DNA of 64,000 nt from Halohasta litorea (GTDB lineage Archaea; Halobacteriota; Halobacteria; Halobacteriales; Haloferacaceae): assembly GCF_024494645.1 (NCBI RefSeq), contig NZ_JANHDJ010000006.1:62001-126000 (forward strand), in the 5' to 3' direction. The notes beneath the pieces were generated by a model that had not been told where the DNA came from, did no database searches, and was given only the letters and a program-made list of their open reading frames with translations. Every line of letters starts with the position of its first letter. The stretch's first letter is position 1. The translations under genes and the position numbers were made by a program. This document shows, in pieces, positions 5,335 to 50,234 of the stretch.

Positions 5335-6135
5335 ATGAGCTCGAAGACGCCCTTCTTCCGGACCAAACGGAAGCGGGTCGGATCCGGGACGCCACCCCCT
5401 CAGTGGGATAACAGCAACTGGAGTGACGAGGCCCACTCCAAGTCGGGGGTCGTGATCCGAGATGGGGGGATCGTCGTTGATCCGTCGATGAAGCCGAAAG
5501 CCGGCGTAGCGCGGTGGACACTCTCACCAGAGGACACCGATGGAACGACCGCCCTCGACACATGGGGAGACAACGACGGTGCGATCTACGGCGGCGTTCA
5601 ACCAGACGTCGAGACGGATGTGGGACCGGCGTACCAATTCGATGGGTCAACCGGTCATGTGGTACTCGGGTCAGTCGAGTCTCTCCAGCTCGATTCGGCG
5701 TACACCGTCTCGCAGTTGATCCGCTTCGAGAGCCAACAGGAGACCTGGTTCTTCGGCAATTACGACACTGAAGACCGAGGAGCTGGGATCACATACGATC
5801 GCGAGGGCAGCGGGCGGATACGGTGGTATGATGGAATCGAGTTCTTCACGCTCTCCAATCCGATCGAGACCCAGCGGTGGTATCTCGTGACGCTATCCAG
5901 ATCCGGATCCACCTACACACTCTATCTGGACGGCGAATACGAAGGGAGTATCACGACTTCGCAGACCGGGTTCAGCGACTCGTCACGCCCTAACGTGACT
6001 ATTGGCAGTTCCTGGGGAGAGACACGCACCGACCACCGAGCCCCACTACACGGCTTCATGAAGAACATCCAGATCTACGCGAAGGAGATCACCAGCGAAG
6101 AAGCAGCGAGGCTGTATTCACAGGGGGCGATCTGA
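5335..6135 (+). CDS. LamG/concanavalin-like lectin domain protein (plus-strand member of fibre family)
   Basis: A 266-residue protein. Residues 1-60 resemble the N-terminal module of the minus-strand fibre genes (FF.TKRKR, then a W..SNWSDEA segment, then a short GGIV strand and W.LS.ED). The remainder is a LamG-type jelly roll ending in the typical ITSEEAARLYSQG, as in Laminin_G_3 domains. No signal peptide. By analogy it is a candidate receptor- or glycan-binding protein of a virion or cell surface. It is the only member on the plus strand and the most diverged. ATG 5335 is preferred over TTG 5332. Confidence 0.75.
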   Translation: MSSKTPFFRTKRKRVGSGTPPPQWDNSNWSDEAHSKSGVVIRDGGIVVDPSMKPKAGVARWTLSPEDTDGTTALDTWGDNDGAIYGGVQPDVETDVGPAYQFDGSTGHVVLGSVESLQLDSAYTVSQLIRFESQQETWFFGNYDTEDRGAGITYDREGSGRIRWYDGIEFFTLSNPIETQRWYLVTLSRSGSTYTLYLDGEYEGSITTSQTGFSDSSRPNVTIGSSWGETRTDHRAPLHGFMKNIQIYAKEITSEEAARLYSQGAI

Positions 6136-7991: not shown

Positions 7992-8630
7992 TCAAATATT
8001 CAACCCGACGTAATAGAACTCACCCTCAGACCGACGTGAATCATCGTACCCATCACTACTAATCACGTTATCTCTAGCCATCAAATGGACGTAGTATTCA
8101 TTAGAAACACCTGAGACATCGAGGGTTTCTGTTTTACGGGGGTACGGCCCGGAGTGATCATCTGAGCCACCAGTTCTATAGAATTCCTCAATGTCAACGT
8201 ACTTTTTTGTGGAGAGAACAACCGCCACAAATCCCTCGTTTTCTTGAGAGGCTGACTCGACGACAATTTCGCGGTAGCCTCCGAAGTCGATTATGTCGTC
8301 ATAGACCCACGAGACAGCATTAAAACCATCTGGGTTCGGATCCGCATCCGCGAACAGGTGGTCTGTTTCTTTCGTCAGTGTCCCGCCAAGAGGCGTATTT
8401 GGATCTCCCTCTGTACCGCCATACCTCCAATTATCCTCATTCGCACCTTCGTTGTACAATTCCACATCCCCAGATATTTGTCGAGATTGAGTTGGAGCTT
8501 GACCGACCAGTACACCATCAACAACAGCAACATTCTCAGCAGTGCCAGTGGCCCAATCAGCTTCACCCCCCCACGAAGCTTCCCTAGCCCCACGCCGATC
8601 GCTAATGAAATGGGATGGATTTTTTGACAT
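7992..8630 (-). CDS. fibre-like protein 1 (shared N-module, unique C-domain)
   Basis: A 212-residue protein. Residues 7-45 carry the family module (SHFISDRRGAREASW, then DW.TGTAENV.V..G.LVG). The C-terminal ~160 residues form a beta-rich domain with no LamG signature, quite unlike the other members. There is no signal peptide, which argues against export by Sec and fits a virion component. It lacks the GACCGGAAT promoter of its relatives; instead GATATATGATATAC lies about 20-30 bases upstream. It is separated from the other five by the helicase gene. Confidence 0.75.
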   Translation of the reverse strand: MSKNPSHFISDRRGAREASWGGEADWATGTAENVAVVDGVLVGQAPTQSRQISGDVELYNEGANEDNWRYGGTEGDPNTPLGGTLTKETDHLFADADPNPDGFNAVSWVYDDIIDFGGYREIVVESASQENEGFVAVVLSTKKYVDIEEFYRTGGSDDHSGPYPRKTETLDVSGVSNEYYVHLMARDNVISSDGYDDSRRSEGEFYYVGLNI

Positions 8631-8725
8631 GGATCAACGAACACGGCAGTATATCATATATCTATCGCCAAGGTGGCCCCAATCCAGAGATTCTACCCAT
8701 CATCCCTCAGTGGTAGTATGCCGAT

Positions 8726-11269
8726 CTACTCGCGTCGGCTCCTCCAGAACTCGGCCAGACGATCACCCAACTCTCCACCAGAGACCGACTCGAACTCATC
8801 GCGGGCGTGTTCCGGGAAGTGCCGCAGTACACTCGATCGGCCAGCCGACTCAGTATAGCGGCCATCTGCGAGGACGCGAACTCCGACGTCTTCCGTCCCT
8901 CGGATCACTCGCCCCAACGCCTGCCGCGTCTTCCGGACCGCAGGCACGGTGAACGCATAGTTGAAGCCGTTCCAGTTTCCGAAGCGTTCGGCGTATGCGT
9001 CTTGGATCGCCGTCGCCACCTCGCTCCCCGTATTCGTAATCGGTACTCCACAGATGACCGCTCCGTGGAGCTGATCGCCCGAGAAGTCGACGCCCTCCGT
9101 GAGCGTCCCCCGGAGGCTGGTGGTCAGCACCTTCGGCTCGCCAGCAACGAACTCCCGCTTGAGGGCTTCCGTTTCCGCGTCCGAACTGCTCTCGTCGACG
9201 AGGATCGGTTTCGTGACCGAGTCCATGTCGCGGAGTACCTCGGCCGCCCACTCACCCTCAGCGTACGAGGGCATGAACACGAGAACGTTCCCCGGCGTCG
9301 TGTTCACCACCGCCGAGATCGTGTCTCGATACTGCGCCCGAAGTTGTTCGTTCTGCTCAGGCGGCCACCGGTTCGAATACGTGAATTTCGGGAGTTCAAC
9401 CGCGTAGCTCGCTCGGTTCTCAGCTGGGAAGTTCATGTCGAACACCGCGGTCGTCACCCGACGTTTCCGTCGTTCCGGATCCCAATCTGACGACTCATCT
9501 TTCTCATCGTCCTCGCTGTCTCCGTCATCACCCTCCTCTTCGTCATCGTCCTCGTCGAGACCGGCGTCGACGTCGCGTGCGCTTCCCTGATTACGCTGAA
9601 CGTTCTTGAACCGGGACGCCGCTTTAGTGACGAGTGAGTCAAAGGGCTGGATGCCGTGTTCGATTTTCGAGATGCCAGTCACCTGCTGGTAGACATCAAT
9701 CGGTTCCAGTGTGGCCGACATCACGATCGCGCCACCGAAGGCGTCGAGAGTCGCCGCAATCTCGTCCTGTGGGATGCAGTTATTCACGCGAATTTCCGTC
9801 TCATACTCCGCTTCCCACGGCCGGTCGCCCGAGTGCGAGGTGTCGCGAGTGTCCTTCGGGTGGAGGTTCACTTCGCGGTAGTATTCGGTGTGGTTCCCGA
9901 GCAGCCAGCGGTGGAGCATCTCACGGACCTGCTCGATGGCGAAGTCACCCTTCGGCGTCTCCTTGTCGATCTTTTTCTGGACCTTCTCGCGGAGATACGC
10001 GACAGAGAATCCGAGGTACAGTATCCGGTGCCAGTCATCCTCCGCGCCGTGTTCACCCATCCACTCGCGGAGGATGTCGCTCTCTTCTCCAGGGCGGACC
10101 TCCTCATGAGCCGAGATGGACACTTCAGACAGGGTACGATTAGAGAGGGACCGCTGCCACCCCTCTCCGAACTCGTCTTTCAGATACGAGACCGTCCGTC
10201 TCGTGAAGAGCTTCCGCGTTTTTTCGAGGAACCAGCGCAGCCTCTTGATGTCCTCCTGAGTATACTCTGCGTTCTCGACCGTACTCCGAACGAGAGCAGC
10301 CTTCCCACCGTGGCCCTTTCCATCGAGCCAGTTGAGAACCATATCGACGTCCTGTATAGCGTAATCAAGCGTCTCCATCGACACCGAGTACGACAGTTGA
10401 TCGCGGGCCTGACTGACCAGTTCGTGTGCCTCGTCGATCACGACAAGCGTGTCCTTGGTGAACAGCTTGCCCGTGAACCCCTGGACGGTTAGCGTGTCTA
10501 AGATATGCTGGTAGTTGCCGATGAGGACCTCACACTCCTCGACGACGTGTTTCATAGCCGCATGGGGGCAGGTCCCCGCTTGAACGCCATTTCGTAGCGT
10601 CTCTTCCGGCGTGACCCCATCACCAGCGTCGAACGCTTTCTGATCCGTGAAGTCGTTGACGAAGTGCCTCGCGAAGAACGGACAGTACGCCTCACCGAGG
10701 AACTCGGGAACCTCACGCTGATATGGTGATTCGACGCCAGCGGCCTCAAGCGAGTCAGTCCGCGGATCATCTGCCTCGGCCCGAGACGCCAAGCCCGCAC
10801 CGACGTCGGCTTTTCGCTCAGCCCCACCGTCGTTCACCACCTCAGACATCATCCGGTCGGTGTTATCCCGCAGCTCGTCACACCGATGGTACAGATCCGA
10901 CCGGTCGATCTCGCCAGCATCGACATACGGACAGACGTCGGCCTTCCCAACGAGGGTCAGCCCCCGAAAATACGAGTTCCCGCTGTTGATGGCCGCTAAG
11001 TCATCCTCGAACGCCCGCAATTGCTGTTTCTTCGAGGTCACCACGAACACCCGCTTGAACCGTGTGTTGCGATCGCGGACGAGCGAGAGGCCGGCGGTGA
11101 GCGCAATCAGCGTCTTTCCCGTTCCACACTCTCCCTCAAGAAGGTAGACGCCATTATCTTGTAGGGTATCAACGGCCTCGTTGATCCCCACCGTCTGCTT
11201 CTGATACGGACTATCGAACGGAAAGATGTCTGCCCAGTAATCGCGTGGGCCAGTGAATTTAGTTGCCAT
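8726..11269 (-). CDS. Rad3/XPD/DinG-like superfamily 2 DNA helicase
   Basis: An 847-residue protein with Walker A GECGTGKT at 46-53 and DEAH at 279-282. Cys113, Cys130, Cys196 and Cys234 lie between them where XPD/DinG helicases bind a 4Fe-4S cluster. The C-terminal helicase half contains LGRVIRG (motif VI). An acidic, probably disordered insert of Asp/Glu (about residues 565-600) is unusual and may be a halophilic linker. Family members unwind DNA 5' to 3' in repair, recombination or replication. It sits within the fibre gene cluster on the same strand but has no GACCGGAAT promoter, so it is probably regulated separately. Confidence 0.9.
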   Translation of the reverse strand: MATKFTGPRDYWADIFPFDSPYQKQTVGINEAVDTLQDNGVYLLEGECGTGKTLIALTAGLSLVRDRNTRFKRVFVVTSKKQQLRAFEDDLAAINSGNSYFRGLTLVGKADVCPYVDAGEIDRSDLYHRCDELRDNTDRMMSEVVNDGGAERKADVGAGLASRAEADDPRTDSLEAAGVESPYQREVPEFLGEAYCPFFARHFVNDFTDQKAFDAGDGVTPEETLRNGVQAGTCPHAAMKHVVEECEVLIGNYQHILDTLTVQGFTGKLFTKDTLVVIDEAHELVSQARDQLSYSVSMETLDYAIQDVDMVLNWLDGKGHGGKAALVRSTVENAEYTQEDIKRLRWFLEKTRKLFTRRTVSYLKDEFGEGWQRSLSNRTLSEVSISAHEEVRPGEESDILREWMGEHGAEDDWHRILYLGFSVAYLREKVQKKIDKETPKGDFAIEQVREMLHRWLLGNHTEYYREVNLHPKDTRDTSHSGDRPWEAEYETEIRVNNCIPQDEIAATLDAFGGAIVMSATLEPIDVYQQVTGISKIEHGIQPFDSLVTKAASRFKNVQRNQGSARDVDAGLDEDDDEEEGDDGDSEDDEKDESSDWDPERRKRRVTTAVFDMNFPAENRASYAVELPKFTYSNRWPPEQNEQLRAQYRDTISAVVNTTPGNVLVFMPSYAEGEWAAEVLRDMDSVTKPILVDESSSDAETEALKREFVAGEPKVLTTSLRGTLTEGVDFSGDQLHGAVICGVPITNTGSEVATAIQDAYAERFGNWNGFNYAFTVPAVRKTRQALGRVIRGTEDVGVRVLADGRYTESAGRSSVLRHFPEHARDEFESVSGGELGDRLAEFWRSRRE

Positions 11270-11385
11270 TGTAGGTAGTGGAGGCGAATATCAGTAAATA
11301 CGGGTACACAACAACCGACCATAATCCCTTGGGTCGACGACAGCCCGCAGCATGAACGACCCAGACGCCTTGACGTGTAACGGTA

Positions 11386-12189
11386 TCAATCGATTCTCCC
11401 TGTGTTGTAAAGGTTGAAAATTTCCGTGTCGCTGAGAGCCTTGCTGTAGATACGAACGTCATCAGCATCCATCGGTATGTCACGAGACGAGTTGTACTTC
11501 TGATTCCCGATACAGAACGGGTCGTTGACGCTCGTCACTGTGATATCATTTGACACATCCGGTCCAGCCGCAAGAGTGCCATTGAGATACATCCTACCTT
11601 CGTTGTCATCGAATACACCAACCGCGTGATACCATTGACCAAGATTTATTGATACAGTCCTTGAGCTAGCATGTGAACCATTAGTTTCACACCGGAAGCG
11701 GATGCTAGAATTGTCACTGTGCGTGAACCCCCATCCATCATCATTCTGCGTGTGCATGGCGATGGATGAATTAAACGACCGTATTGAATCGTATTTTACC
11801 CACGCAGCGAGAGTCATGCTGTTCAAACCTTGAACTTCGGTAATAGTTCCACAGTTCACTTCCCCGTCACCGTTGAAATAATACGCCTCGTTTGTACCGT
11901 ATGTCTGATTCGCGCCGCTGGTACCAGTCGAAACCCCTGTAGAGATAGAACCATCATTACCTCCCCAACTATCAATCGCGACCGAACCGCTCGTGTCTTC
12001 GTTGTCAAACGTCCATCGCGAGACACCGCTATCGGGTGCTTCACCGTCCTGTGTAGGAGCACGGCCCACCAACCCATCAGCAGTCACGCCAACGTTCTCG
12101 GGAGCCCCCGCATTCCAGTCCTCCTCATCCGCCCAAGATGCTTCCTCGCGACCGCGCCGATCGCTAATAAATCGGCTCTCCCCAGTCAT
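11386..12189 (-). CDS. fibre-like protein 2, LamG C-domain
   Basis: A 267-residue protein. Residues 1-55 carry the shared module (SRFISDRRGREEASW, DW.AGAPENVGVTADGLVG). Residues ~60-267 form a LamG jelly roll: WTFDNED then a D-S-W-G-G-N-D-G segment, and a terminal ALSDTEIFNLYNTG. Such domains bind glycans or proteins. No signal peptide. ATG 12189 is chosen over an upstream ATG because every relative starts a few residues before SRF and because the promoter element at 12214-12228 sits 39 bases away. Confidence 0.8.
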   Translation of the reverse strand: MTGESRFISDRRGREEASWADEEDWNAGAPENVGVTADGLVGRAPTQDGEAPDSGVSRWTFDNEDTSGSVAIDSWGGNDGSISTGVSTGTSGANQTYGTNEAYYFNGDGEVNCGTITEVQGLNSMTLAAWVKYDSIRSFNSSIAMHTQNDDGWGFTHSDNSSIRFRCETNGSHASSRTVSINLGQWYHAVGVFDDNEGRMYLNGTLAAGPDVSNDITVTSVNDPFCIGNQKYNSSRDIPMDADDVRIYSKALSDTEIFNLYNTGRID

Positions 12190-12213
12190 ACTCGAGGTAC
12201 CTTCCACTGTGAG

Positions 12214-12228
12214 TTATACATTCCGGCC
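12214..12228 (-). promoter_or_regulatory. minus-strand fibre promoter element
   Basis: On the minus strand this reads GGCCGGAATGTATAA, 39 bases (outer edge) before ATG 12189. Member of the GACCGGAATGGCTAATA class; the TATAA portion lies near -26. Confidence 0.6.
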
Positions 12229-12299
12229 AACACCGGGTAAGCTCCAACCAGGCGCGACAGTATCCATCCCGACCAGATCCGATAGTAAGCCACGACAGG

Positions 12300-13040
12300 T
12301 CACCGGTCAAATCCTATCGAATCTATATTTATGCCTCCACTGAATTCGCGAGGTGCAAACCCCACAAACGGACATGGGGCTGTTGGAGAAAACGAATCCG
12401 AATGGGAAAGCACAGAGCTCCCATCGACGACGAGGTCGATAGTAAACGAGCTAAAGTCACCGTTGAAATCTATCTCGACTTGCCGCGCCCCGCTTCCAAA
12501 GTTGAACGGCACCTGCACTTCACGTCTGAACTCGGTCCCTTCCCTCATTTGGATGCGCCACTCCTGGGCATCCTGGCTGTAATGGACCTCAATCGAGTTT
12601 TCAGCAGTGGCATACTTTCCAACGGCTGTCCCATCCCAAAACAGCGCAATCACAATCTGCTGTCTGTCCCCCGCGAACTCAATCATAGCGTCGAGTGAAC
12701 ACGGATTCCCATTTTGGCCGTCTTGAACTTCATCCGCTGTTCGGAGATATGGCCTATTGTCACCTCGCCCGCCACCTCTGAGCTCAATTTGGTTGTTCCG
12801 TTCCGAGACGGATCCACCAGAGACTATCACTTTGCGCCAGATAGAGGTGTCAAAAACACCATCATCAAAATCGTCGAAGACAGTGTACTGTACATCACCC
12901 TCCGCAAAGTGTGGAGAAAGGCCCCCACCAGCTACAGCAACATTTTCACAGACACCAGCGTCCCAATCCCCTTCATCCGACCAAGTTGCGTCCCCGCGAC
13001 CACGCCGATCGCTCGTGAACCGACTCGATTCATCTACCAT
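12300..13040 (-). CDS. fibre-like protein 3, concanavalin/GH16-like C-domain
   Basis: A 246-residue protein with the shared module at the N-terminus (SRFTSDRRGRGDATW, DW.AGVCENVAV). The C-domain begins with FDDFDDGVFDTSIW, a start typical of concanavalin-like/GH16-type sandwiches rather than LamG, and no catalytic ExDxxE is visible, so it is probably a binding domain. ATG 13040 is chosen by alignment with relatives and by the element at 13065-13080; an upstream in-frame extension overlaps the region between genes and is rejected. Confidence 0.8.
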   Translation of the reverse strand: MVDESSRFTSDRRGRGDATWSDEGDWDAGVCENVAVAGGGLSPHFAEGDVQYTVFDDFDDGVFDTSIWRKVIVSGGSVSERNNQIELRGGGRGDNRPYLRTADEVQDGQNGNPCSLDAMIEFAGDRQQIVIALFWDGTAVGKYATAENSIEVHYSQDAQEWRIQMREGTEFRREVQVPFNFGSGARQVEIDFNGDFSSFTIDLVVDGSSVLSHSDSFSPTAPCPFVGFAPREFSGGINIDSIGFDR

Positions 13041-13064
13041 ACAGCCCACACCCCAGAGAGCGGC

Positions 13065-13080
13065 GTTAGATGCTCCGACC
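13065..13080 (-). promoter_or_regulatory. minus-strand fibre promoter element (diverged)
   Basis: Minus strand GGTCGGAGCATCTAAC, 40 bases before ATG 13040; the position matches the other copies but the sequence is the least conserved. Confidence 0.5.
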
Positions 13081-13119
13081 AACTCACTACCGAAAACCCA
13101 CCCATCGAGTAGCACAGAG

Positions 13120-13911
13120 TCATCCGGCGATTCTCCCCGTGTTGTAGAGGTTATCAACTTCCGTGCTGGAGAGTTCTTTAAAGTAGACCCGCGGGTCGTC
13201 TATGTGACCCTCCCAGAACTGAATCCCAGCGCGCGAATAACTCGCGCCGATGTCGCCCTCTGCGTGTTTGTCGTTTGAAAACCCGTTAAAAATCGTATCC
13301 TGTGTTCTCCTGTTCCCGTTCTCATCGTAGAACCAAACACGGCAATACCCCTCCGCTTCGTTCCACGCCCCTGCTACAAACAGCCACTGACCAGCTGTAC
13401 CAGTCATTACGTTATTTTTCCACCCGTCAACGGAATCGTGATACTGGACACCGAACTCTTCAGAGGCCTTTCTGAGGGCGGGCTGTCCGTATCCTTTCAG
13501 GTTGTTTATGAACTGCTGTCCCTCCAGATTGTCTGCTTTAAACCACGAGGTGAGTGTGAACTCAATCTCAGAGGGAATCTCGATTCCGTGGTTCTGGTAG
13601 GACGATCCATCGTAGTAGGTGCTGAAATCCCCCACGGCGGAATCCGAGGACCACGTTGCCCCGTGATTCGTTGCGTCATTATCATTCCAGCTGTCGATCG
13701 AGACAGAGACATCACCCTCACTGTCGAAGTTCCACCTCCCGACCCCGCTGTCGGGCACCTCACCAGCTTGAACAGGAGGATCAGCCACTAACCCACTAAC
13801 CGTAACATCAACGTTCTCGACAGTGCCAGCATCCCAGTCTGCTTGGGCAGCCCAAGACGCCTCCTCTCGAGTACGCCGATCGCTCGTGAACCGACTCGAT
13901 TCATCTACCAT
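13120..13911 (-). CDS. fibre-like protein 4, LamG C-domain
   Basis: A 263-residue protein with the shared module (SRFTSDRRTREEASW, DW.AGTVENVDVTVSGLV) followed by a LamG domain beginning WNFDSEGD and ending ELSSTEVDNLYNTG. The C-domain resembles that of protein 2 only at these signature strands. The ATG at 13911 is set by alignment and by the element at 13934-13950. Near-identical DNA in the first ~100 codons among relatives would allow recombination between genes. Confidence 0.8.
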   Translation of the reverse strand: MVDESSRFTSDRRTREEASWAAQADWDAGTVENVDVTVSGLVADPPVQAGEVPDSGVGRWNFDSEGDVSVSIDSWNDNDATNHGATWSSDSAVGDFSTYYDGSSYQNHGIEIPSEIEFTLTSWFKADNLEGQQFINNLKGYGQPALRKASEEFGVQYHDSVDGWKNNVMTGTAGQWLFVAGAWNEAEGYCRVWFYDENGNRRTQDTIFNGFSNDKHAEGDIGASYSRAGIQFWEGHIDDPRVYFKELSSTEVDNLYNTGRIAG

Positions 13912-13933
13912 ACACCAACCTCCAAGCACGCAG

Positions 13934-13950
13934 TATTAGCCATTCTGGTC
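13934..13950 (-). promoter_or_regulatory. minus-strand fibre promoter element
   Basis: Minus strand GACCAGAATGGCTAATA, 39 bases before ATG 13911. Together with the 14831 copy, it and the following TGCGTG are almost identical. Confidence 0.7.
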
Positions 13951-13979
13951 ACGTATGTAGGAGATCCCAGCATCAGGCA

Positions 13980-14807
13980 TCAGACCTCGGGACGAACAGC
14001 TCTCAGTGCTTTTCTCTCAGATTCACCATATGGTTCATCTCGGAATTCGAAAAAGCCAGCATGGTAGTTCATGTGCCTACGAATACTCCCAAAGGAGTTT
14101 TCGGCGTAAAATGACATACCAGCTGTGACTGAATATTTCGTGTGGTCAAATCCTTGATCCCTTCTATTATTTTGCGAAGTCTCGTTCGTCATATCATCAA
14201 CATAGAAGTCAATTTCCGATGCAGAATTCCCTCTCTTATTTATCACCACCAAATGGACGTCTCCGTCTACAATACCAGTCTTACACGCCACTTTGAGTTC
14301 ATTGCCGTTACCATCTCTGACAAGGACGTTCGGTTCACCCAACCTGCCTACAGCATCATCTTGATACAACGCAAAACACCCACTGCCATCAGTCGACGCG
14401 AACCAAGTAGATAGGTCCGTTTTATCAGCAGTTTCAACCGTGAAGGCCACCCCGAACGTTTCATTTTCGGGGATAGTTTCTGGCCCATTCGCCAGCCCGT
14501 AATCATCCGAACCATTCCCGGCTACGGACTTGACCCCATTGCTAAATGTTGAGGAAGAGAGGCCATTGGCAGACATCCCAACCGATGAAACACCATCTGT
14601 CCATGGGATGGCAAAGTCATCAGCGGTCCATCGGTAGACTACGCTGTTGGATGTCTCATTATTTTGAGTGAATAGACGACCAACCAACCCATCTTCCGTC
14701 ACATCAACGTTTTCCGCGGTACCAGCTTCCCAATCCGCCTGACCGGTCCAAGATGCTCCCCCGCGGCCGCGGCGATCGCTGGTGAACCGGCTCGATCCAT
14801 CAGTCAT
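13980..14807 (-). CDS. fibre-like protein 5, LamG-like C-domain
   Basis: A 275-residue protein with the shared module (SRFTSDRRGRGGASW, DWEAGTAENVDVTEDGLVG). The C-terminal 215 residues are a beta-sandwich with W.ADDF at its start and an FGVAFTVET strand, consistent with a LamG/concanavalin fold but very diverged from proteins 2 and 4. G+C is visibly lower than in neighbouring enzymes. No signal peptide. The start is fixed by the module alignment and the element at 14831-14847. Confidence 0.78.
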   Translation of the reverse strand: MTDGSSRFTSDRRGRGGASWTGQADWEAGTAENVDVTEDGLVGRLFTQNNETSNSVVYRWTADDFAIPWTDGVSSVGMSANGLSSSTFSNGVKSVAGNGSDDYGLANGPETIPENETFGVAFTVETADKTDLSTWFASTDGSGCFALYQDDAVGRLGEPNVLVRDGNGNELKVACKTGIVDGDVHLVVINKRGNSASEIDFYVDDMTNETSQNNRRDQGFDHTKYSVTAGMSFYAENSFGSIRRHMNYHAGFFEFRDEPYGESERKALRAVRPEV

Positions 14808-14830
14808 ACGCAAACGCTCAAGACACGCAA

Positions 14831-14847
14831 TATTAGCCATTCCGGTC
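14831..14847 (-). promoter_or_regulatory. minus-strand fibre promoter element
   Basis: Minus strand GACCGGAATGGCTAATA, 40 bases before ATG 14807, used here as the type sequence. CTAATA centres near -26, suggesting a leaderless transcript with the CCGGAATG portion at the BRE position. Confidence 0.7.
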
Positions 14848-14882
14848 AGTCACACGAGAAAACTAGACACGGGAGTGGATCT

Positions 14883-15620
14883 TCATCCCCATACCTCGTC
14901 TACCCACTCGTATCCGGTTGGGTTAGCATTCCCACCCGTTTTGTCTCGCCGTCCACCACCGATGAAAACTTCACTTACTTCTGAGGATGTAGTTTTGAAC
15001 GATTCGCCATTCGCGGTGAGGTCTGGCGTAGACCCTGTCAGATCTTCCCAGAGAACATCAAATTCGTTGCGACCCCAATCGATCGTCACAGTGAATCGAC
15101 GCCACTCGTCGTAATTGGGAGACGGATCTGGAGTCAGTTCACGATGACCGAATCCAGACTCATATCCCACTTGTGGGTTTAGCGTATAGAGTTCAAAGAT
15201 AGAATCTCCATTCTCGTTGAATAACTCGTATAAAATCCCACGCGAATCGGCTGTTTCTTTATATGCCCACGATACTTCGGTAGGTGTTGCAGACAATCCG
15301 GTTCGCCGGGCAACATACTCGTCATTGTTTGGGGAGTAGTGGTTACGTAGAGAATGTGAACCGTTGCTTGCGGTACTATCTATGACCTCCGCATCCCGAA
15401 CTTCCCACCCGTCAGGCGATGAGCCAACAGAATCGTCCTCGAAACTATAGACCCCGCTGTCGGGTGCCACACCGGCTTGTAGAGTAGGACGGCCCACCAA
15501 CCCATCGGCAGTTACATCAACGTTCTCAGGGGCTCCAGCCTCCCAGTCAGTTTGGTCAGCCCAAGACGCCTCTTCGCGAGTACGCCGATCGCTGGTGAAC
15601 CGGCTCGATCCGTCTGCCAT
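14883..15620 (-). CDS. fibre-like protein 6, unique C-domain
   Basis: A 245-residue protein with the shared module (SRFTSDRRTREEASW, DWEAGAPENVDVTADGLVG). The C-domain (VYSFEDDSVGSSPDGW onward) resembles a generic concanavalin/CBM-type sandwich and has no detectable similarity to the other C-domains beyond its first strand. It is the first gene of the minus-strand array as transcribed. The start is fixed by the module and by the element at 15645-15662. Confidence 0.78.
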   Translation of the reverse strand: MADGSSRFTSDRRTREEASWADQTDWEAGAPENVDVTADGLVGRPTLQAGVAPDSGVYSFEDDSVGSSPDGWEVRDAEVIDSTASNGSHSLRNHYSPNNDEYVARRTGLSATPTEVSWAYKETADSRGILYELFNENGDSIFELYTLNPQVGYESGFGHRELTPDPSPNYDEWRRFTVTIDWGRNEFDVLWEDLTGSTPDLTANGESFKTTSSEVSEVFIGGGRRDKTGGNANPTGYEWVDEVWG

Positions 15621-15644
15621 ATACACTACCTTTCCTGAGTCGGG

Positions 15645-15662
15645 TAGATAGAGATACCGGTC
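15645..15662 (-). promoter_or_regulatory. minus-strand fibre promoter element
   Basis: Minus strand GACCGGTATCTCTATCTA, 42 bases before ATG 15620. Confidence 0.55.
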
Positions 15663-15711
15663 AACACGCCGCATTAGAAGCACTACTGAAGCTGAACCCT
15701 CGAATCGCTAC

Positions 15712-20268: not shown

Positions 20269-21668
20269 CATCCGTCTTTAGTTAAGCCTCACACCTCGGT
20301 TGTGTAGCGGTAGCGAGCGTCTCTTGTAAGATTGGTCGTCGTTTGTGGATCTTTTGAGCGTCTTCGATCAGCCGGTCGAGCAGCGGCGGTGGTGAGTAGC
20401 CGAGGAACTCACCGAGTTCGTGGAGAATGAGCTGGGCGTGCGACCGGAAGGTCGCCGCCCAGCGCTCTGTCGGAAACACAAGCTCATCATCCGCCTGCTC
20501 AGTGACTAGATCCAACAGATCGCGGCTTACAAGCAGCGACAGCAGCGCTGCGTACAATAAGATCCTCACCACGTGTTCGTCACTCGTGTCGAACTCGTCC
20601 AGTTCGTACTGCGTCTTCAGCTCCCGGAACAGCAACTCAACTTCCCACCGACAGCGGTAGATCTCCGCTAAATCCGCCGGAAAGAACTCTTTTCTCGCTA
20701 AATTCGTCATGTACAGGTGGTAGTCGTCGGCGTCCTCGTCGCGGACGCCGACGACGCGAAATCGCTTCGTATCCAGCGACTGTGTCCCATTGTACGGCCC
20801 CCGTTTGAACTCGACTTCGACCTCCACATCGATGTATTTCCGGTCAAGATCATCGAGAACAGCTCGGAGCTGCTCGCCCTCTAAGGGAATGGCGCGGCCG
20901 CGCCATTCCCGTAACTCCGCCGTAATCAGCGGATTCGCGTTCTGCTTCAGCCGACTCACGAAGTAGCCGTCGTTTTCGTCGATCAGCGCAAACCGGCGGT
21001 ACTTGAAGTAGGCGAGATCGAACAGTATGAGGCGATTCTCAAGCCACGGCCCCGTGTTGAACAAGGTGCTGTCGTGCGTTTTCTCGTTAGCGGTATCGAG
21101 CCGTTCAATCGTCTGCTCTGTGGCATTGTGGAGCAGGTGGAGCTTCGCTCCAGCCTGCTCCTCGTGGCGGGCTTCGAACTGATCTGAGAGAAATTCGTGT
21201 AACCGCAGCACCGTTCCATCAGCGATCATCACGTCTCTAAATCGGTCGAGATCAGCGTCAACAGCGTTAGGAACAGCGACCTCGTCGAGGCCGCGCTCGA
21301 CGAGGTCGCGGAAGTACTCCGCAAGCGTCGGTGTCAACCGCTGATAGAATCCACCCGGAGAGATCGTCTCATCGGCAGTAGAGTTGTAACAGCGTCTAAA
21401 CCCGGCGAGTGTTCGGCTTTCGCCTGCGGCGAAGCCGAACACGAACGCCCAAACGAAGGCAGGGATCTGGAGCTTGCGGTCACGTTCGACCACGCCGAGT
21501 TCCTCGGCGTGCTCTTCGAGGAACTCAGAGGGAAACAGTGTAGTGAGCCGACGCATAATCCGAGATGAGGAGCCGTTGGGCACAAACTCGGCTTCCTCAT
21601 TCCTTCCGAAAGATGCCTCGATAAGCCGCCGCTATCACGCGATTTCTCGCTTAACTAAAGACGGATGA
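20269..21668 (-). mobile_element. ISH8-like insertion sequence (IS4 family), 1400 bp, intact
   Basis: Perfect 19-bp terminal inverted repeats, CATCCGTCTTTAGTTAAGC at 20269-20287 and its complement at 21650-21668, bound a single transposase gene. A 10-bp direct duplication flanks it. Length, ends and transposase signature match the ISH8 group of haloarchaeal IS4 elements. Intact ends and exact duplication indicate a recent insertion, between dhfr and the box promoter of the 21730 gene. Confidence 0.93.
20282..21583 (-). CDS. IS4-family (ISH8-type) transposase
   Basis: A 433-residue DDE transposase, full length for ISH8 elements. Asp122 (MIADGT), Asp189 (LFDLAYFK) and the signature Y309-x2-R312-x3-E316-x6-K323 are all present, so the catalytic triad is intact. 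It moves the surrounding 1400-bp element by cut-and-paste. The stop lies within 15 bases of one terminal repeat. Codon use is more GC-rich than that of the fibre genes, consistent with a recent arrival. Confidence 0.93.
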   Translation of the reverse strand: MPNGSSSRIMRRLTTLFPSEFLEEHAEELGVVERDRKLQIPAFVWAFVFGFAAGESRTLAGFRRCYNSTADETISPGGFYQRLTPTLAEYFRDLVERGLDEVAVPNAVDADLDRFRDVMIADGTVLRLHEFLSDQFEARHEEQAGAKLHLLHNATEQTIERLDTANEKTHDSTLFNTGPWLENRLILFDLAYFKYRRFALIDENDGYFVSRLKQNANPLITAELREWRGRAIPLEGEQLRAVLDDLDRKYIDVEVEVEFKRGPYNGTQSLDTKRFRVVGVRDEDADDYHLYMTNLARKEFFPADLAEIYRCRWEVELLFRELKTQYELDEFDTSDEHVVRILLYAALLSLLVSRDLLDLVTEQADDELVFPTERWAATFRSHAQLILHELGEFLGYSPPPLLDRLIEDAQKIHKRRPILQETLATATQPRCEA

Positions 21669-26614: not shown

Positions 26615-27981
26615 GCGATCGACACGCCAGCATCGACCAGCTGCTAACGGGAGACGGGATCACTACGGAATCCGAACTCCGGAGCGCAATCTGGTGTGGG
26701 GACCCGCGAGTATTCGAGAACCACGACGGCAAAACGATCACCCAAGCAGCCAAGCACCTCACGTGGGGCGGCTTCGATTTTACCCGCCTGGACGTCGACG
26801 ATCTCTCCCGGCGTTCTCGGGTCCTTGAGGAGGTGAACAACACCGCCCTCGCAGTCCTAGGCCCAGACGGCAACGTCTACCAGTTAGGCGACACGGTGCG
26901 CGCAGAAGTCCAGAAGCCACGGCACGGTTGGGGGCGGAGGCCGGACCCCGACGAAACAGCCACTTACGAAACGGAGCTCACACGGGTGAGCGAACTCGGC
27001 GTCTCGCTTTCGTTTGACCCGACCTACAGCAACTCATCGGGGAAGAGCGCCTCTGCGAAGCCCGGACGGGACCCACTCGAACTGCTCTCGCGAAGTGATC
27101 TCGATGAGTACAGAGAGCGGCTAACAGAAGGGACCGACATCGACATCCCCAAGGAAGTCAACGGCTGGACGCTCTCGGAGACCGACGAATACGACCGCGA
27201 CACGAATCACCTCCAGAACAACCTCATCACGAAGATACAGTGGTGTAACGGCGAGTCGACGTATATCACGGCAAAATGGCGAGGGGGGTACAACTGTTTT
27301 TATCTCACTGCCCCCATCCCCGGAACGCTCACCGACGCGAACCAAGGCGAGAACGACTACCTGTACGAGATTGACGTCCCGCAACGAGTCGTCACCAGCC
27401 GGGAGATCATCAGCCTCGCCGTCGAAGCCATGGAGTCGCTCAACCCGGCGCACTTCCAGTCCGCATACGACCTTCGAGACGCCGATGAGATCGACAGCCT
27501 GCGGGATCAGCGATACGGACCTGCGCCCGTCAACTTCCCAAGGCAGCTCGGCGACTGGACGCGAGAAAGCATCCACCCCTACGAGGTCGTCTACGCGAAC
27601 AGTCGTGAGATGTGCCCGTGGGACGGCTATCAGGTCAAGATCGACATGCACGGCGGCGTCATCGTGAAGAACGAAGCAGACAACGTAGTCCACGATCGCC
27701 GGCTAGTAGAGCGTTACTTCCCGAACGGCGAGCCGTACCCAGCGAACATCGACACCCACGACTACGTCGGCGAGAGTCGCGATATGTTCGACGAGAACTG
27801 GTACTATGGGGTCGCGTTCATGGCCCAATCCTCGAAAGCACGGCCGGATCACACCACGCTCGAAACGCTCGAAGAGCACACCCCGGCTAGTGTCTCACTC
27901 ATGACGTTCGATCACGGGCTTTCAACGAACGCTACAGCGTCACAGGACAGGGAAAACGGGAACCTCTTCGCGTACAGTTAG
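26611..27981 (+). CDS. hypothetical 456-residue protein
   Basis: A 456-residue soluble protein coupled to the 26288 gene by ATGA. Residues 1-90 look like a helical domain; the middle is an Arg/Asp-rich linker; the C-terminal half contains two internally similar beta-rich stretches (each starting with a GW or GDW motif followed by an S-x-E-x-Y segment), which may be a duplicated domain. I do not recognise the family. Its stop codon overlaps that of the convergent gene at 27978. Confidence 0.72.
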   Translation: MSDRHASIDQLLTGDGITTESELRSAIWCGDPRVFENHDGKTITQAAKHLTWGGFDFTRLDVDDLSRRSRVLEEVNNTALAVLGPDGNVYQLGDTVRAEVQKPRHGWGRRPDPDETATYETELTRVSELGVSLSFDPTYSNSSGKSASAKPGRDPLELLSRSDLDEYRERLTEGTDIDIPKEVNGWTLSETDEYDRDTNHLQNNLITKIQWCNGESTYITAKWRGGYNCFYLTAPIPGTLTDANQGENDYLYEIDVPQRVVTSREIISLAVEAMESLNPAHFQSAYDLRDADEIDSLRDQRYGPAPVNFPRQLGDWTRESIHPYEVVYANSREMCPWDGYQVKIDMHGGVIVKNEADNVVHDRRLVERYFPNGEPYPANIDTHDYVGESRDMFDENWYYGVAFMAQSSKARPDHTTLETLEEHTPASVSLMTFDHGLSTNATASQDRENGNLFAYS

Positions 27982-28280
27982 TTCGGCTCGATGATGACGA
28001 TGGGGTCAGACTCGACGAGGCCACCAAGGCCAGCCTCCGATAGCGTTGTCGCCAGAAGCCGGGAGTTCTGCATGTCCAGCCCCTGAATGGTCACGGACGG
28101 CGACTGCGTCTCCTGGTCGATAGTGGTGAAGCCCACATTGTTGACTTTTACTCCCGCAAGCCCGATACCCTCTCGAAGCTCCTCGACAGCCTGTTCGCTG
28201 AATCCAAAGAACACGAGCTCGCACGCATTGTCTGGCCCCAGACTATCCACAGCAGCACTATCCGCGCTCGATTCGCTCAT
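27978..28280 (-). CDS. hypothetical protein under the fibre-type promoter
   Basis: A 100-residue acidic protein with an alpha/beta pattern, unrecognised. The ATG at 28280 is chosen because the GACCGGAATTGCTATA element on the minus strand lies 43 bases (outer edge) upstream; a longer frame would start beyond that promoter. It is therefore the only gene outside the 11-16 kb array that shares the fibre promoter, suggesting it is expressed at the same time and may be a virion or late protein. Confidence 0.65.
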   Translation of the reverse strand: MSESSADSAAVDSLGPDNACELVFFGFSEQAVEELREGIGLAGVKVNNVGFTTIDQETQSPSVTIQGLDMQNSRLLATTLSEAGLGGLVESDPIVIIEPN

Positions 28281-28307
28281 ACAACTACCGCCGTCACAGC
28301 AATCAGG

Positions 28308-28323
28308 TATAGCAATTCCGGTC
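28308..28323 (-). promoter_or_regulatory. minus-strand fibre-type promoter element, remote copy
   Basis: Minus strand GACCGGAATTGCTATA, 43 bases before ATG 28280, 13 kb away from the fibre cluster. Confidence 0.65.
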
Positions 28324-28350
28324 AGATCGACATCCAGAACCCATCCAGAA

Positions 28351-30481: not shown

Positions 30482-30724
30482 TTGCCGTTCCCATCACACA
30501 TCAATCCGAACAGTTCGCGAGCGCCGTGGAACGCCCCACCGGCTCCGGAGTGTCCAGACTGCGAGCGAGTCATCCACGACGGTCGCGACCACGAGGCCGA
30601 CTGCCCACTTGCTGGCGTCGACGACGAGGAACTCCACCGTCAGCTCGTCGAAGACGCCGAGGCCGATACCGCAGAGCAGCGATTCGAACAACAGCGCGTC
30701 GACAACCACCGTCCCAACCAATGA
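30482..30724 (+). CDS. small zinc-finger protein with TTG start
   Basis: An 80-residue protein with Cys24, Cys27, His37 and Cys41 (CPDC then H-x3-C) as a likely zinc site and an acidic helical C-terminus. There is no ATG between box 11 and the conserved part; TTG at 30482 is in the right place. If correct, weak initiation may limit the level of a regulator. It overlaps the next gene by ATGA. Confidence 0.65.
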   Translation: MPFPSHINPNSSRAPWNAPPAPECPDCERVIHDGRDHEADCPLAGVDDEELHRQLVEDAEADTAEQRFEQQRVDNHRPNQ

Positions 30725-49166: not shown

Positions 49167-50234
49167 ATGACTCACCGAACATCCGTAGTAACCGCATCGC
49201 AAGAAGCCGCGACCACGTCGGCCATTTCACCCGAAGAAACACGCCAAGAGCCGGCAAGCAGTCGCCAAGACGAAACCACCTGCCCTGACTGCGAGGGCAC
49301 AATCATCACTGACGAGGCCGCCGGGGAGCGTCACTGTGCTGACTGTGGGATGGTCGTCGAGGAAAACCGAATCGACCACGGCCCCGACTGGCGGAATTTC
49401 GATCACGAAACGGACAACAGCCGAGTCGGAGCACCGGTCTCCGAGGCCTTACACGATAAGGGCCTCTCGACTCAGATCAGCTGGCAGGACAGAGACGCAA
49501 ACGGGAATCGGATCTCCACGCGAAAGCGGAGGCGGATGTCTCGACTCCGGAAATGGGACGAGCGATTCCGAACGCAGGACGTCCGCGATCGCAACAACAA
49601 GAAGGGCTTCACCGAGATCCAGCGGATGACCTCTGCACTGGGGCTACCGACTAACATCGCACAAACGGGCGCAGTCATCTTTCGGCAAGCCTCCGAGCAG
49701 AAAGTCCTGCTCGGACGATCCATCGAAGCCGTCGCAACGGGTGCGACTTACTTAGCCGCGCAGTTAGAGGGCATCCCCCGGACCTTCGACGAGTTCGCTC
49801 ACGTTTCACGAGTCGAACGGGCAGCCATCAGACGAGCCCAGTCCGCGATCGACAAGAAACTGAAGCTCCCCATCAAGCCGACGACGCCCGAGGTCTACAT
49901 CCCGCGATTCGCGAACGAACTGGATGCCTCAGAGCGAGTCGTCACAGAAGCGAAGCGACTGACCAACCATCTCTCGGAGACGAACCACATCTCCGGTCGG
50001 AAGCCGAGTGCGCTCGCTGCTGTCGCCCTCTATGCGGCCAGCATCACCCTCGGAACGCAGATGACACAGAACACCGTCGACGAATCCGGACTAGCGAGCG
50101 AAGTGACGGTCCGGAACACCTACAAGCTCTTCCTCGACGCCGACCCCACCTGTGAGTACACGCTCGAAGAGCTCGAATCGATGAACTCCGCCGAAATCAA
50201 ATCGAAACTAAGCCCGGACCCTACCGACAAATGA
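49167..50234 (+). CDS. tfb: transcription initiation factor TFB
   Basis: A 355-residue TFB. Cys39, Cys42, Cys57 and Cys60 form the N-terminal zinc ribbon. Residues ~70-90 (DHGPDWRNFD) are the B-reader; a basic linker RKRRRMSRLRKW follows. Two cyclin-fold repeats lie at about 145-235 and 245-335, the second with the BRE-reading helix. The N-terminal 35 residues are a disordered extension. It recruits RNA polymerase to promoters with TBP. Element-encoded TFBs may redirect transcription; this one may recognise the recurrent box. Overlaps the next gene by ATGA. Confidence 0.93.
   Translation: MTHRTSVVTASQEAATTSAISPEETRQEPASSRQDETTCPDCEGTIITDEAAGERHCADCGMVVEENRIDHGPDWRNFDHETDNSRVGAPVSEALHDKGLSTQISWQDRDANGNRISTRKRRRMSRLRKWDERFRTQDVRDRNNKKGFTEIQRMTSALGLPTNIAQTGAVIFRQASEQKVLLGRSIEAVATGATYLAAQLEGIPRTFDEFAHVSRVERAAIRRAQSAIDKKLKLPIKPTTPEVYIPRFANELDASERVVTEAKRLTNHLSETNHISGRKPSALAAVALYAASITLGTQMTQNTVDESGLASEVTVRNTYKLFLDADPTCEYTLEELESMNSAEIKSKLSPDPTDK

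Follow-up and report, generated by a model that had tools for sequence, protein, structure and literature searches.

Proteins with one N-terminal module and divergent C-terminal domains on a putative megaplasmid of Halohasta litorea

The window analysed in this work is a stretch of 64,000 nucleotides that corresponds to bases 62,001-126,000 of contig NZ_JANHDJ010000006.1 (C31) in the 3.81-Mb genome of the archaeon Halohasta litorea. Six minus-strand genes between positions 7992 and 15620 of the window encode proteins that begin with a common module of ~45 residues (the N-module) and diverge afterwards. All six proteins start with M-x(2-5)-[RH]-F-[TI]-S-D-R-R-...-[ST]-W-x4-DW-x-[AT]-G-...-EN-V. 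This pattern had been noticed in a first-pass annotation of the sequence and is borne out by a profile of the N-module, which was built from the same six array members and searched against the 2,658 open reading frames (ORFs) of the element. The six genes have independent E-values (i-Evalues) of 5e-24 to 7e-27 and the similarity is therefore not due to chance. The profile also detects 15 further clear members with i-Evalues of 7e-10 to 3e-22. The first-pass annotation had described an array of six genes; all six are present, but a helicase gene with DEAD_2 and Helicase_C_2 domains interrupts the run. The features of the window are listed in Table 1.

Table 1. Family members, promoter motifs and neighbouring genes in the window (window positions; i-E, i-Evalue).
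Feature	Position	Strand	Basis and remarks
Diverged seventh member, LamG protein with degenerate N-module	5335..6135	+	Against member 11386, 5.3e-14; Laminin_G_3 4.9e-17
Family member, 212 aa, no assigned C-domain	7992..8630	-	N-module i-E 2.7e-24; no significant Pfam match; promoter motif only 4.5 bits
Constant N-module DNA of first member (equivalent 5'-end position in every member)	8490..8630	-	Alignment
DinG/XPD-like helicase gene, non-member	8726..11269	-	Pfam Helicase_C_2 1.8e-30, DEAD_2 1.2e-13
Family member, 267 aa, LamG (ConA-like) C-domain	11386..12189	-	N-module i-E 1.5e-26; Laminin_G_3 7.5e-26; AlphaFold model, Foldseek
Promoter motif of 12189 gene	12209..12230	-	
Family member, 246 aa, no assigned C-domain	12300..13040	-	N-module i-E 4.7e-24; start 13040 not 13157, set by promoter motif
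Promoter motif of 13040 gene	13061..13082	-	
Family member, 263 aa, LamG C-domain	13120..13911	-	N-module i-E 1.7e-25; Laminin_G_3 3e-8
Promoter motif of 13911 gene	13931..13952	-	
Family member, 275 aa, no assigned C-domain	13980..14807	-	N-module i-E 1.1e-25
Promoter motif of 14807 gene, GACCGGAATGGCTAAT	14828..14849	-	Motif end to ATG, 25 nt
Family member, 245 aa, second jelly-roll class, homologous to halovirus HCTV-5 gp137	14883..15620	-	N-module i-E 6.6e-27; class profile against HCTV5_137 9e-20
Weaker promoter motif of 15620 gene	15643..15664	-	
100-aa gene without N-module but with family promoter motif (28304-28325)	27978..28280	-	
Element-encoded TFB (TFIIB repeats)	49167..50234	+	PF00382 matches at C31:111590-112138

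The family, of which six genes had been reported, continues beyond these genes. The N-module profile identifies 21 clear and about five diverged members on C31 (~26 in total). The two main arrays are the one described above (six members) and C31:152,265-159,506 (nine members). The other members occur as pairs at 132-133.6 kb, 210-212 kb and 222-224 kb and as singles, including the diverged seventh member of Table 1. A further LamG protein at C31:29735-30526 (plus strand), whose start is similar but very degenerate, adjoins a diverged member at 30523 and is a possible 27th member.

The consensus of the N-module is MTDGSSRFTSDRRxRxxASWxxxxDWxAGxxENVDV..GLV. DNA identity between members falls from 0.5-0.8 within the module to a background of ~0.27 about 150 nt into the genes. 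In the AlphaFold models the module has low confidence (predicted local distance difference test, pLDDT, about 36-54) and is predicted to form one short helix, located at the DW motif, and short strands, separate from the C-terminal domain (C-domain). Relatives of the module were sought in IMG/VR, phages, plasmids, and 392 genomes of the order, and none was convincing; the outside matches were LamG domains alone or weak fragments. The modules group weakly by array (p 0.034) and weakly by C-domain class (p 0.068), and these statistics were rejected as proof of shuffling because they are too weak.

The C-domains consist of LamG (seven members), a second jelly-roll class (seven members on C31 and two more in the related element of strain R60 that is described below), a propeller pair (PQQ- and WD40-type), and several singletons. 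The LamG member at 11386 exhibits a confident ConA-like jelly roll in its AlphaFold model, and its Foldseek neighbours are lectin domains and viral LamG proteins, including that of HVTV-1. The model of the second jelly-roll class has a mean pLDDT of 56 and its PDB matches are only indicative. The first-pass annotation had listed two LamG, one diverged LamG, one GH16-like, and two unassigned sandwiches. Two members (11386 and 13120) match LamG in Pfam, and the protein at 14883 belongs to the second jelly-roll class and has no significant match to any catalytic family. The proteins at 7992, 12300, and 13980 have no significant Pfam match. No toxin family was found among the C-domains tested, which are lectin folds, propellers or without a match. 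No immunity partner gene was found within the arrays, unlike in polymorphic toxin arrays where C-terminal toxin domains occur with immunity genes.

Most of the members have a common predicted promoter motif, GACCGGAAYRNCTAAY, whose end lies exactly 25 nt upstream of the ATG in strict matches. This distance is compatible with an archaeal B recognition element (BRE)/TATA and a nearly leaderless transcript. Motifs of at least 10 bits precede 16 of the 21 clear members and two of 298 other genes (leave-one-out matrix; Fisher p 8e-21), and one of those two genes (g050) is itself a diverged member. A start and a promoter of its own had been assigned to each of the six genes; the motif is real, but the gene that starts at 8630 has no good match. 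Since the distance between motif and ATG is fixed, the start codons are also fixed and a hidden upstream signal peptide is unlikely. No hydrophobic segment was found in any member (maximum 19-residue Kyte-Doolittle mean <=1.31), and the absence of signal peptides that had been reported is confirmed. The TFB and TBP that the element encodes could be the factors that act on these promoters. The members had been proposed to be either used together or switched. Switching is unsupported, whereas use side by side is favoured because the majority of members carry a promoter of their own and an inverted expression site was not found.

C31 consists of 296,994 bp with ends that overlap by exactly 127 bp. 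A second copy of the element was identified in Halorubrum laminariae R60 (Scaffold4_1, NZ_JANHDL010000004.1; 302,165 bp), with an identity of 98-99.8% over most of the length. The R60 copy is opened elsewhere and its sequence runs across the C31 junction. A circular molecule is supported because the two assemblies are cut at different places. The gene calls on C31 (317 ORFs, 83% coding, mostly on the plus strand) were made with a simple Markov model and are approximate.

The comparison of both copies exhibits turnover of cassettes. Beside the second array, a 2.67-kb stretch of R60 contains the starts of four further cassettes that are missing from C31. The remnant in C31 consists of the last 75 codons of one such cassette, in frame and across a 5-bp microhomology; as it has neither module nor promoter, C31 lost the four cassettes by deletion. 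A WD40-propeller cassette is present in C31 and missing in R60, where a fused gene combines the promoter of the WD40 gene with the C-domain of the PQQ gene. The switch falls within the stretch of module DNA, ~110 nt long, common to both C31 genes. Homologous recombination at the module would give such a join as its expected product, and both loss of the WD40 cassette in R60 and its gain in C31 are possible. The conserved 5' DNA had been expected to permit recombination, with related elements suggested as the place to look for cassette exchange, and such recombination can be seen directly between the two copies. No inversions were found in the alignment of C31 and R60; the element encodes one integrase-type protein. 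The member at C31:155,504-156,256 is 95% identical between the copies with differences concentrated in the C-domain, and the other shared members are 98.4-100% identical. The pN/pS ratio (nonsynonymous to synonymous polymorphism) of the family is 0.25 against 0.12 for other genes, and the family is under purifying selection. In addition, R60 contig C37 has an insertion of about 2.5 kb near the site matching C31:201820, with a 596-aa ORF that is transposase-like by eye; the insertion is absent from C31.

The C-domains are also related to proteins of halovirus tail tips. The LamG profile that includes the module matches HVTV1_137 (9.2e-27), HHTV1_36, HCTV2_59, HHTV2_63, and HCTV5_136 (range 9e-27 to 1e-11). 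All five alignments start at the SW of the module or immediately ahead of it, and an [ST]Wx4-5[DE]W element that is co-linear with the module core stands ahead of LamG in all five viruses. BLASTP of a LamG member against HVTV1_137 gives 33% over 216 columns. The module alone has a weak match to the viral N-termini (hhalign E 0.0014 over 23 columns), which is suggestive of a relation between its SWx4DW core and the N-terminus of the tail-tip proteins. Nothing in the haloviruses corresponds to the first half of the module (SRFTSDRR). The family alignment stops at residue 275 of 367 of gp137; the viral proteins carry a C-terminal domain of ~90 residues that was not found in the family, whereas the element has ~26 paralogues and no tail.

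The second variable tail-tip gene of the haloviruses (HCTV-5 gp137, HCTV-2 gp60) likewise has the second jelly-roll class and the PQQ propeller as variable domains, with the PQQ member matching HCTV2_60 at 1e-6. Its constant module is FVFEEGEAI... instead of SRFTSDRR. By eye, the gene after the tail LamG gene (HVTV-1 gp138, HHTV-2 gp64, HCTV-5 gp137, and HCTV-2 gp60) combines a constant FEEGEAI... module with a remainder that differs per virus, and the module is located at the start of those genes but at the end in HCTV-2. The viral LamG gene directly follows the baseplate gene in four of the five viruses (the HCTV-5 baseplate gene was identified by similarity to the others), and in HHTV-1 it follows the tape-measure gene. 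On the element, no LamG gene was found to follow a gp9/10-like baseplate gene as part of a tail module. By these homologies, the arrays have the domain repertoire of halovirus tail tips, but the tail is missing.

The element also carries transfer and plasmid genes. They include Orc1/Cdc6, RPA-like, PCNA, ParA, TBP, TFB, and a VirB4 ATPase (PDB 4ag5, E 4.4e-9) that has homologues on 232 plasmid records, mostly haloarchaeal. A match of this 952-aa protein to a terminase in PHROG was rejected, as it is VirB4. The polytopic gene that adjoins VirB4 is likewise its neighbour on about 20 haloarchaeal plasmids. A 1247-aa protein with a Walker-type GSGKT motif (C31:284868-288611) is a candidate coupling ATPase. 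Its close homologues (94% and 83%) in other haloarchaeal genomes have only a small neighbour gene in common with it, which resembles a mobile cassette. The elements that share it (G343, G364, and G328) were rejected as relatives since only these two genes, and no backbone, are shared at high identity.

Several other genes were observed on the element. Two archaellins and the rod-determining factor RdfA were found among 106 further proteins that were scanned, and together with TBP and TFB they may alter the transcription, motility, and cell shape of the host. A minus-strand cluster at C31:185227-196031 (PLD/SNF2 helicase, DUF1156/N6_N4 methylase, and DUF499) resembles a defence system, and a similar DUF499-methyltransferase set occurs on NZ_CP031151. 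Downstream of the array region, at 20282-21583 of the window (minus strand), lies an ORF of 433 aa that has, by eye, features of a transposase.

The reading that we favour, held at slightly under an even chance, is that the family is a plasmid-borne repertoire of ligand-recognition proteins that share one docking tag and have been diversified by recombination at that tag. The circular 297-kb element encodes ~26 proteins with one N-module and differing beta-rich C-domains, most of them expressed from copies of one specialised predicted promoter that has a constant spacing to the ATG. Loss, truncation, and fusion of cassettes have occurred, at least once through a join inside the module DNA. In the favoured reading, the N-module would dock each variant to the same partner, and the C-domains would bind glycans or surface proteins as the related halovirus proteins do. 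The most likely partner would belong to the transfer or surface apparatus of the plasmid itself, either the VirB4-type cluster or a large membrane protein, and several adhesins would thus help the donor to recognise varied recipients. A candidate for the docking partner is located beside the second array (C31:160225-165807), a protein of 1860 aa with several N-terminal transmembrane segments and about nine CARDB repeats.

Several observations weigh against this reading. The members have no signal peptide, transmembrane segment or lipobox, so export would need a special route. No fold can be assigned to the N-module from its low-confidence models. No relaxase was identified on the element and the candidate coupling ATPase has no Pfam or PDB match; conjugation is thus putative. 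No member is located inside the transfer cluster. Haloarchaeal plasmids with DUF87/VirB4 transfer genes (such as NZ_CP095490 and NZ_CP031151) share VirB4 and the adjacent polytopic gene with C31 but, in the regions inspected, have no annotated LamG array.

The first-pass annotation had interpreted the proteins as interchangeable receptor-binding proteins attached to a common base. The constant module, the variable binding domains, and the homology to tail-tip proteins agree with this, but a virion baseplate as that base does not: the element carries plasmid-type VirB4, replication, and partition genes, and homologues of a terminase, major capsid, sheath or halovirus baseplate were not found on it. 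The element could be a giant tailed halovirus whose receptor-binding proteins dock to the baseplate through the N-module, as the LamG, second-class, and PQQ homologues are encoded next to a baseplate gene in viruses and as RNR, dTMP kinase, dCTP deaminase, and a vWA/AAA gene pair are common to the element and HVTV-1 or HF2. However, Terminase_6N and Phage_capsid have no match in the genome, and the sheath Pfam family has none on the element. No structural protein of HVTV-1 or HF2 matches the element except the LamG protein (the other matches are only metabolic, DNA-modification, and accessory proteins), and a profile of four baseplate proteins (gp136-type) gives no match at E <= 1. The PHROG scan of the 106 proteins gives no head, packaging or tail family except the LamG-containing phrog_8510, among 25 of 28 families listed, and no relatives were found in IMG/VR. 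With none of the large terminase, capsid, portal, and tail genes of a tailed virus found, nor a sheath or baseplate, the giant virus was rejected as highly improbable. We conclude that the element is a megaplasmid with a transfer-type apparatus; strictly speaking, a virus with unrecognised structural genes keeps a small probability. Fainter still is the chance that the tagged proteins are taken up by the tail of a helper virus or by a contractile injection system of the host and retarget or spoil it. The alignment of the SWx4DW core with the tail-tip LamG N-terminus would suit such a substitution, and the same genome has a contractile injection cluster, but the SRFTSDRR half lacks a halovirus counterpart and the terminase search found no helper provirus. 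The cluster (C28:329557-344952; sheath, CIS_tube with LysM, spike OB domain, GPD hub, two Baseplate_J, and Tail_P2_I) is on contig C28 only. R60 keeps the arrays with no sheath homologue detected, a negative without a positive control, and co-occurrence of the cluster with the arrays was not found there. The members as cargo or fibres of the host injection system are disfavoured on the same observation.

The proteins may instead act in the cytosol, where members would bind incoming viral or foreign ligands as sensors, decoys or inhibitors and the N-module would recruit a common effector. The missing export signals, the fixed start codons, the recognition folds of the C-domains, and the DUF499/DUF1156/helicase cluster on the element suit this explanation, which we nevertheless regard as unlikely: LamG and related folds usually occur outside the cell or on virions, and no effector gene or immunity partner was found within the arrays. 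The reading of a plasmid-borne recognition repertoire is still preferred. Its more specific form, in which a conjugative-type archaeal megaplasmid took recognition domains of virus tail tips onto its own docking tag, broadens recipient recognition through an expandable adhesin set, and forms new genes by recombination at the tag, is put forward as a speculation that we regard as rather unlikely.

Recognition proteins with a constant N-part and a variable C-part are already known. The shufflon/PilV adhesins of IncI plasmids have a constant N-part and exchangeable C-parts, with one expressed gene and switching driven by an invertase (PMC9045228, PMC5430464). They are plasmid-encoded like the family described here, whereas the arrays consist of ~26 mostly separately promoted genes that are not pilins, with no invertible segments seen. 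Variable haloarchaeal recognition proteins under diversification also include the hafunavirus adhesins for host range and the invertible tail-fibre module of phiCh1 (PMC8651126). Those proteins are in virions and vary at one locus by mutation or inversion, in contrast to the expanded array on C31. As far as we could find, no archaeal plasmid has been described that carries virus-type recognition proteins as an expanded set of genes, most with a promoter of their own.

The known sites of variable recognition proteins are phage tails and bacterial shufflons. If the favoured reading is true, a plasmid that has no detectable tail but carries ~26 virus-type recognition proteins built on one tag would show archaeal plasmids putting the receptor-binding domains of viruses to their own use. 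The two near-identical elements record the loss and fusion of cassettes at base resolution, which makes the mechanism testable. To our knowledge, little has been published on the choice of recipients by haloarchaeal plasmids, and the family would, if the reading holds, give a handle on that choice.

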